A stretch of 23,054 nucleotides of DNA from a virus, in the IMG/VR virus record IMGVR_UViG_3300047386_000206, positions 1 to 23,054 of that record. One strand, written 5' to 3'. The translations under genes and the position numbers were made by a program. Numbering within the stretch: position 1 is the stretch's first letter; the number at the start of each line of letters is the position of its first letter. Positions 12,774 through 14,246 of the stretch are shown one piece after another. The notes under the pieces were generated by a model. That model ran no database searches. It was not told the DNA's origin and was given only the letters and a program-made list of their open reading frames with translations.

Positions 12774-13275
12774 AGGCACGAACGTTCGCACGGCTTTAGT
12801 TTGCGACGAAGCACCTACACGGGCGGCACTTATCGGGATGCTCAGCCGATGCGTTAAATTCATCGATGCGAATAAGACGCTTACAGAACCCGAACACATT
12901 GCAATGACCGTGAACGAGCTTGTACAGCAATTCCCAACGTTTACGCTTGAAGATTGGCGCTTGTGTCTGTACATGATGGCTAAAGAAAGCTTTGGGCCGT
13001 ACTACGAGCGGCTAAAATTGGCGCAGTTCGTCGATTGCTTCACCAAATACGACCAATTAAAGCAACCGGTGATTCAAACGATACGCGAAAACGAACGCAA
13101 AGACGCCGAGCGGATGCAACAGGAAGCAATGAGGCATTTACAGCCCGAATACGCCACGCAAATTAACCCGGTGGCATCGAGGGTTCACCCAGCCGATTGG
13201 ATGGCAGGAGAAGACCGCTTAACGTACACAGAGCGCGAAGAGATGCAGAACCGACAGAAGCAAAGCAACAAATGA
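12700..13275 (+). CDS. Unknown replication-associated protein (helicase-loader position)
   Basis: 191 aa from ATG 12700. An ATG at 12568 would give 235 aa with a 206-base overlap on the initiator; the true start could also be a TTG at 12718 or 12727. The middle (LTEPEHIAMTVNELVQQF, then LEDWRLCLYMMAKESFGPYY) follows a pattern I recall in Bacteroidota phage and mobile-element proteins of unknown function (possibly DUF6633-like). The C-terminal part is a charged helix (IRENERKDAERMQQEAMRHL). Its place directly after the initiator is where many phages keep a helicase loader. No ATP-binding motif is seen, so the role is uncertain. Confidence 0.7.
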   Translation: MSTAKSLQNLQELDVSRLTLQTCFEGTNVRTALVCDEAPTRAALIGMLSRCVKFIDANKTLTEPEHIAMTVNELVQQFPTFTLEDWRLCLYMMAKESFGPYYERLKLAQFVDCFTKYDQLKQPVIQTIRENERKDAERMQQEAMRHLQPEYATQINPVASRVHPADWMAGEDRLTYTEREEMQNRQKQSNK

Positions 13276-14246
13276 CGCACGGCAGTCTGTTTTCAGGAAT
13301 CGGAGGCTTTGACCTTGCCGCTGAATGGTCAGGGTTCACAAACCTCTTCAATTGCGAGTGGGAAGAGTTCCCTCGCAAAGTCCTCAAGCACCACTTCCCA
13401 AATGCAAAACAATATGAAGACATCAAAGACTTTAACGCAACTGACTATAATGGACGAATTGACGTCCTTAGCGGAGGATTCCCCTGCCAACCGTTTAGCG
13501 TTGCAGGAAAACGAAAGGGGTCAGAAGACGAACGCCACCTGTGGCCGGAGATGCTTAGAGTTATCCGAGAGTGTCAACCCCGTTGGGTCGTGGGCGAGAA
13601 CGTTCGGGGAATTTGTTCTTGGTCGAACGGATTGGTATTCGAAACGTGTTGCTCTGACTTGGAAGCTCTCGGGTACTCCGTCCAATCGTTTATTGTTCCA
13701 GCTTGTGCCGTCAACGCTCCCCACAGACGCGACAGAGTTTGGATTGTTGCCCACAATCACAACGGAGACGGGCAGAAAGAGCGACTTCAAGCAGGGAGAA
13801 AAGTCGATGTTCACAGCTCTGAACGAAACCGGAATGCTCCCAACACCCAAAGCAACGGAAATAAGCGAAACATGGGAGCAACACAAAAACAGGGCAAAAA
13901 ACCCAAACGCAAAGAATCGCGGGGCAAGTTTGAGCGCAACTATCAACGGAATGCTCCCCACGCCAATGAGCAGAGACTACAAAGGAGGCAGAACAAAAGA
14001 ACAACTGAAAGCATCGGGAAGGACGGAAACAAACGGATTGCCGGACGCATTTGCTCAGAATGGGAAAACTTCCCAACTCAATCCCCTATTTGTGGAGGAG
14101 ATGATGGGCTTCCCAAAGAACTGGACGGCATTACCTTTTCAAAGTGGAGAAGAGAATCAATCAAAGGATACGGCAACGCTATAGTCCCACAAGTTGCTTA
14201 CCGCATATTTCAAAGCATAAACGATTACGAAAATGACAGATATTGA
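13272..14246 (+). CDS. dcm: DNA C5-cytosine methyltransferase
   Basis: 324 aa, ATG overlapping the previous stop (ATGA at 13272-13275). It has all main C5-methyltransferase motifs: FSGIGG (motif I, 7-12), GGFPCQPFSVAGK with catalytic Cys72 (motif IV), ENV (109-111, motif VI), HRRDRVW (151-157, motif VIII) and GYGNAIVPQ (299-307, motif X). Between about residues 160 and 270 the chain is Lys/Arg/Asn/Gln-rich and low in complexity where the target-recognition region should be; this is the part overprinted by another frame. It probably protects phage DNA from host restriction or marks it. Target sequence is unknown. Confidence 0.95.
   Translation: MTHGSLFSGIGGFDLAAEWSGFTNLFNCEWEEFPRKVLKHHFPNAKQYEDIKDFNATDYNGRIDVLSGGFPCQPFSVAGKRKGSEDERHLWPEMLRVIRECQPRWVVGENVRGICSWSNGLVFETCCSDLEALGYSVQSFIVPACAVNAPHRRDRVWIVAHNHNGDGQKERLQAGRKVDVHSSERNRNAPNTQSNGNKRNMGATQKQGKKPKRKESRGKFERNYQRNAPHANEQRLQRRQNKRTTESIGKDGNKRIAGRICSEWENFPTQSPICGGDDGLPKELDGITFSKWRRESIKGYGNAIVPQVAYRIFQSINDYENDRY
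13450..14184 (+). CDS. Overprinted protein in +1 frame of methyltransferase gene
   Basis: 244 aa from ATG 13450 (ATGs at 13402 and 13414 and a TTG at 13309 are alternatives), wholly inside the methyltransferase gene in another frame. It does not look like a random shadow: it has TDWYSKRVALTWKLSGT, FQLVPSTLPTDATEFGLLPT, two LPTP repeats and near its end SQLNPLFVEEMMGFPKNWT. I recall very similar sequences (W-x-L...FQL.PST.PT; LNP.FVE.MMGFP..WT) as separate proteins in Bacteroidota phages, often annotated as methyltransferase-related. In the region where the methyltransferase frame is low in complexity, this frame is the better-conserved-looking one. Function unknown; it might contribute target recognition. 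Confidence 0.6.
   Translation: MDELTSLAEDSPANRLALQENERGQKTNATCGRRCLELSESVNPVGSWARTFGEFVLGRTDWYSKRVALTWKLSGTPSNRLLFQLVPSTLPTDATEFGLLPTITTETGRKSDFKQGEKSMFTALNETGMLPTPKATEISETWEQHKNRAKNPNAKNRGASLSATINGMLPTPMSRDYKGGRTKEQLKASGRTETNGLPDAFAQNGKTSQLNPLFVEEMMGFPKNWTALPFQSGEENQSKDTATL

Follow-up and report, generated by a model that had tools for sequence, protein, structure and literature searches.

Overlapping genes for the probable two halves of a phage C5-methyltransferase

As far as comparison of homologues can tell, the C5-cytosine DNA methyltransferase gene studied here codes in two frames: both are under selection inside the overlap, and the main frame alone is outside it. The two products, alpha (main frame) and beta (+1 frame), are very probably the subunits of a naturally split C5-cytosine DNA methyltransferase, each encoded in its own frame of one DNA. 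The window, that is, the whole stretch of 23,054 nt that was analysed, is a tailed-phage fragment in which the methyltransferase gene lies upstream of the terminase. A gene of unknown function flanks it on one side; a short ORF, then a NinG-like endonuclease, on the other. This position is a plausible one for a gene of phage self-methylation. The overlapping frames are:

13272–14246, + strand: alpha, C5-cytosine methyltransferase frame (putative catalytic subunit), 324 aa
13402–14184, + strand: beta, +1-frame ORF, 260 aa from the ATG at 13402; alternative ATG at 13414

The +1 frame is open and under selection

Inside the alpha gene, the +1 frame runs without stops from 13276 to the stop codon at 14182–14184 (906 nt), confirming the second open frame that the initial annotation had described within a complete C5-methyltransferase gene. 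Position 13402 is an ATG, and the one at 13414 is the position most often used as start among homologues. Two long ORFs also lie antisense to the overlap (13521–13961 and 13711–14076, minus strand, 146 and 121 aa), and an Rfam search of the region gave no match.

A fairly long +1 frame is expected here, because permuting the gene's own codons yields a longest +1 frame of 511 nt on average. This favors reading the open frame as a by-product of main-frame composition or protein sequence, or else as a sequencing error, with no gene behind it. The openness in the window was nevertheless above chance (synonymous permutation with the gene's own codons, p = 0.0085; with codon usage taken from other genes in the window, p = 5e-5), and the +2 frame was ordinary in synonymous permutation. 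Across 78 distinct IMG/VR homologues, the +1 frame was open over 75–94% of the gene in every case, the +2 frame over merely 7–33%; +1 openness reached p ≤ 0.01 in 81% of these genes by synonymous permutation, +2 openness in none. Frequent stops in the +1 frame of homologues, which would have refuted a second gene, were therefore absent from these 78. Canonical relatives lack such an open frame: in 16 C5 methyltransferases from Bacteroidota, the +1 open fraction was just 0.09–0.39. When IMG/VR was scanned with either alpha or beta as the query, the resulting contig sets were largely identical.

The putative start of beta is conserved as well. A +1-frame ATG occurs at main-ORF offsets 127–178 in 78/78 homologues, compared with a mean of 58 and a maximum of 68 genes in 300 synonymous permutations. 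Shortly 5′ of this internal ATG there is a +1 stop in most homologues. At the Tyr codon overlapping the commonest beta start, TAT was found 41 times and TAC 10 times (elsewhere: TAT 148, TAC 357).

We then classified substitutions by what they change in each of the two frames, using a custom, OLGenie-like count in which pairs are not independent. Beta was constrained inside the overlap (dNN/dNS 0.40, 0.40 and 0.30), and the +1 frame just outside the beta ORF was not (0.87 and 0.98). Alpha was constrained throughout (dNN/dSN 0.04–0.29) except between motifs VIII and X, where the ratio was 0.87; within the overlap, the successive values were 0.19, 0.87 (middle) and 0.29. In the middle stretch, a main-frame dNN/dSN of 0.87 is thus set against a +1-frame dNN/dNS of 0.40, which bears out the earlier impression that the middle of the methyltransferase has low complexity just where constraint on the +1 frame is strongest. 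Third-position identity of the main frame was 0.46 and 0.40 outside the overlap, and higher, at 0.58–0.77, in the conserved parts within it. Main-frame synonymous variation was accordingly not as high as in non-overlapping sequence, the other outcome that would have counted against overprinting. In a distant clade that includes E. coli phage Dru_SM5, the pattern recurred in weaker form, with dNN/dNS of 1.08 and 0.96 outside the overlap and of 0.77 and 0.76 within it. A by-product or sequencing error, to which we give almost no credence, is contradicted by the openness across species, by the codon-position patterns and by dNN/dNS. The proposal of the initial annotation that two proteins share one DNA stretch is supported in that both frames are selected; translation of beta is inferred.

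The methyltransferase motifs are divided between the frames

Alpha matches PF00145 (8e-50) and phrog_363 (4e-78), and Foldseek aligned its model to M.HhaI and M.HaeIII over ∼170 columns, in line with an M.HhaI-like catalytic domain. As a member of the C5-cytosine DNA methyltransferases (PF00145), it has motifs I, IV (PC), VI (ENV), VIII and X:

13290–13319, + strand: alpha motif I, FSGIGGFDLA, AdoMet site; invariant in alignment A2; outside the beta ORF
13473–13499, + strand: alpha motif IV, GGFPCQPFS, catalytic Cys; invariant in alignment A2
13596–13610, + strand: alpha motif VI, ENVRG; invariant in alignment A2
13722–13742, + strand: alpha motif VIII, HRRDRVW; H, R, R and W invariant in alignment A2
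13752–14057, + strand: alpha filler, from motif VIII to the C-terminal block; low complexity; dNN/dSN 0.87, unconstrained in the alpha frame
14172–14198, + strand: alpha motif X, GNAIVPQVA; invariant in alignment A2; contains the beta stop codon

Alignment A2 has no conserved block between VIII and X that would represent motif IX in alpha, and residues 169–275 were modelled as disordered (pLDDT 32–49). Alpha thus does not meet the further expectation for a PF00145 enzyme, namely that one chain also contains motif IX and a target-recognition domain.

A counterpart of motif IX is found in beta, which is laid out as follows:

13633–13713, + strand: beta conserved hairpin, WYSKRVALTWKLSGTPSNRLLFQLVPS; conserved in alignment A1; two strands, pLDDT 78–88, the best-predicted part
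13744–13833, + strand: beta cassette 1, family 10, LLPTITTETGRKSDFKQGEKSMFTALNETG; directly after alpha motif VIII, the position of the target-recognition domain (TRD)
13834–13950, + strand: beta cassette 2, family 56, MLPTPKATEISETWEQHKNRAKNPNAKNRGASLSATING
13951–14076, + strand: beta cassette 3, family 4, MLPTPMSRDYKGGRTKEQLKASGRTETNGLPDAFAQNGKTSQ
14077–14127, + strand: beta motif IX-like segment, LNPLFVEEMMGFPKNWT; E..MMG.P..W core invariant; best hhalign match is canonical motif IX

The beta translation (13309–14181) matches phrog_1008, 'DNA methyltransferase', at 1e-28; there was no Pfam match, and a PDB sequence search returned nothing significant. The +1-frame motifs that the initial annotation had described as conserved in other phages are indeed conserved there. 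The C-terminus reads L[NS]PLFVEEMMGFPKNWT with an invariant core, and in hhalign against 16 canonical Bacteroidota enzymes the single best profile match of beta fell exactly on motif IX, if weakly (pairwise E 0.028, probability 1.7). The monomer model of beta was poor (pLDDT 57, pTM 0.22) except for the hairpin and the motif IX helix. Because of this, and because Foldseek found no fold for the model, only meaningless matches, a small-domain fold of beta is not demonstrated. A poor model is as expected for a chain that folds on its partner, which is no proof that beta does so.

The clearest evidence on the nature of beta is that the position of motif IX varies between phages. It lies in the +1 frame in most of those compared; in the actinophages CheeseTouch, Trax and 1191A (L285, L290 and L291; Gordonia and Arthrobacter) it is in the alpha frame, directly before motif X; and in Mycobacterium phage GaugeLDP (L289) alpha ends after VIII, with cassettes, motif IX and motif X all in one +1 ORF. 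One element therefore moves between frames, and since its frame differs across phages, the beta C-terminus is most simply the methyltransferase's own motif IX. The differing partitions point to frame-switch points that may have moved during evolution. A separate observation concerns phage Deep1-GF2-KM23-C739 (L283, 669–1613), where the methyltransferase N-terminus is in another frame than the rest of alpha, by a frameshift or a further split.

Could beta instead be overprinted on the methyltransferase gene without being part of the enzyme, as a separate regulator or anti-restriction protein? Its lack of a family match beyond phrog_1008 and of a predicted fold would allow this. We nonetheless think it improbable, given that motif IX is absent from alpha and present in beta, that it changes frame between phages (alpha in the three actinophages, beta together with X in GaugeLDP), and that alpha and beta are linked at every locus found.

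A second alternative keeps beta within the enzyme and has programmed ribosomal frameshifting fuse the alpha N-terminus to it, the fusion (motifs I–VIII, cassettes, IX) being the active product. The parts of alpha and beta follow the order of a single-chain enzyme, as such a fusion would have it, and the GaugeLDP +1 ORF also holds motif X. In the window phage, however, the fused product would be without motif X, and a shift after motif VIII has no need of the selection on beta that is seen from about alpha residue 46, far before VIII. The ATG near offset 130–178 in 78/78 homologues, above permutation, and the +1 stop just 5′ of it in most of them likewise favor an independent start. We therefore see little prospect for frameshifting, and return to two subunits encoded in two frames.

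Beta carries exchangeable cassettes

The variable region of beta is a string of ∼40-aa units, each beginning (L/M)LPTP, with one to five per beta. In the window, the first starts at 13744, two bases past the end of alpha motif VIII. Altogether, 338 cassettes sort into 125 families. Their order is fluid: common families have up to 15 different successors, a number reached by family 0, and some families are confined to the last position. Cassettes that are 86–98% identical occur within backbones of 44–48% identity, and 88/176 pairs of backbones at least 85% identical have no cassette family in common. The window (families 10, 56 and 4) and its homologue L004 (families 14 and 2), whose backbones are nearly identical, are an example. 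Inside cassettes, amino acid identity in beta was, for example, 0.84 versus 0.46 in the alpha frame, and within cassette families variation concentrates at the third codon position of beta. On this comparative evidence, cassettes are shuffled between phages. They occupy the target-recognition position; a role in target recognition is inferred, without specificity data.

In the split enzyme that we propose, alpha would provide AdoMet binding and chemistry (motifs I–VIII and X), without motif IX or a target-recognition domain. Beta would be translated from the internal +1-frame ATG and supply a conserved N-terminal part with the hairpin, the exchangeable LPTP cassettes and motif IX, which would organise the target-recognition domain, with the cassettes sitting in that domain's place. 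Alpha and beta together would form the working enzyme and methylate the phage's own DNA, allowing escape from host restriction, an anti-restriction role that is inferred; exchange of cassettes would change the sequence methylated. The initial annotation had suggested that the two proteins perhaps act together. Complementation through motif IX makes this specific, and the physical association itself is an inference.

A further-reaching version is possible, although we lean somewhat against it: beta, in its overprinted frame, may be a row of target-recognition cassettes that are interchangeable, each a separate specificity unit, and that phages reshuffle to escape restriction, with the catalytic frame tolerating any insert as filler. 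On this view, the enzyme would once have been a single chain, and paired frameshifts would have transferred its recognition part to the +1 frame, at switch points that differ between phage groups.

Distribution and annotation of the pair

Beta overlaps alpha in phase +1 at 84/84 loci in records of annotated phages or of bacterial or archaeal genomes (L161–L244, including the window itself as L164) and at 80/80 loci from a Dru_SM5-type scan (L292–L371). The relatives checked for overlap phase came from other phages and some 80 bacterial genomes. Phages in culture that carry the pair include Bacteroides phage BKO1-TP3 and Lacticaseibacillus phage R23.9. Linkage was consistent, and neither a standalone beta nor a single-chain form was found in these two sets. 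A candidate single ORF with both alpha and beta (L171) was rejected, as it has a run of N (scaffold gap) beside duplicated sequence.

Annotation of the pair is uneven. For Paenibacillus larvae phage Tadhana both frames are annotated, each as a DNA-cytosine methyltransferase, and other records annotate one frame of the pair. The record of Porphyromonas phage018a (L163) annotates only part of the region, with a hypothetical protein where beta lies, and gives no methyltransferase gene for the alpha frame, which is intact.

Some Bacteroides loci speak against the split-enzyme reading in that alpha contains TGA though beta is intact. In-frame TGA in alpha with beta open was observed at seven loci in Bacteroides and Parabacteroides genomes (L191, L212, L213, L214, L215, L217 and L220); in L191, L213 and L215 these codons fall mostly at conserved Trp positions (AAEWMGW, FRxWRG, FSRWRQ). 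An element-wide TGA=Trp code in the TGA-bearing Bacteroides loci is unsupported, as neighbour genes in L214 and L212 end in TGA and are read normally by table 11. Decay, readthrough or another alpha acting in trans all remain possible.

As a rule, long overlaps between genes on the same strand are young orphans. Here, by contrast, the overlap would pair two parts of one enzyme, their assembly being inferred. It recurs in phages of Bacteroidota, Bacillota, Actinomycetota, cyanobacteria and enterobacteria, where annotations often show one gene only, or a pair without explanation. If our interpretation is true, many phage 'DNA methyltransferase' annotations denote half an enzyme, and cloning the annotated half alone, or recoding it, would destroy the other half. 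With the set of cassettes there is also a direct route to linking short protein modules with methylated DNA targets.

Comparison with known systems

The literature searched, which did not cover most subscription papers, contained no existing description of a nested split methyltransferase in phages. Nor did we find an earlier description of the breadth across phages, of cassette shuffling in an overprinted frame or of differing frame partitions. PHROG 1008, 'DNA methyltransferase', resembles the system through its match to beta. The P. larvae phage pairs are doubly annotated frames like those of Tadhana, and their records state no functional relation between the frames; no discussion of how the paired frames relate was found in the paper on these phages (PMC6070908).

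The split principle is already known from M.EcoHK31I, a precedent that the initial annotation did not mention. There, too, the gene of the large subunit contains the small subunit in another frame. It is a two-polypeptide C5 methyltransferase (YGGCCR), reportedly described by Lee, Kam and Shaw in 1995. The large subunit has motifs I–VIII and X and the predicted target-recognition domain, and the small subunit has motif IX (PMC3404938). Alpha and beta share with it both the placement of motif IX on a second, smaller polypeptide, with X kept on the large one, and the nesting of the small polypeptide in another frame. They differ in that the predicted TRD of M.EcoHK31I is in the large subunit, whereas here the middle of alpha is unconstrained and the cassette-built variable region is in beta.

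M.AquI has motif X in its small subunit and a variable region divided over both subunits (PMC3404938). This enzyme (CYCGRG) is likewise a two-polypeptide C5 methyltransferase split between VIII and IX, with both chains in the enzyme, and the GaugeLDP partition resembles it in having IX and X together; in the window, by contrast, alpha keeps motif X and one gene is nested in the other.

The multispecific phage C5 methyltransferases M.SPRI and M.phi3TI carry tandem target-recognition units of ∼40 residues in a single chain and one frame. They too are phage-encoded, and beta has one to five exchangeable ∼40-aa units in the TRD position (no specificity data). Unlike these single-chain, single-frame enzymes, however, the system described here has its cassettes in a separate, overprinted frame.
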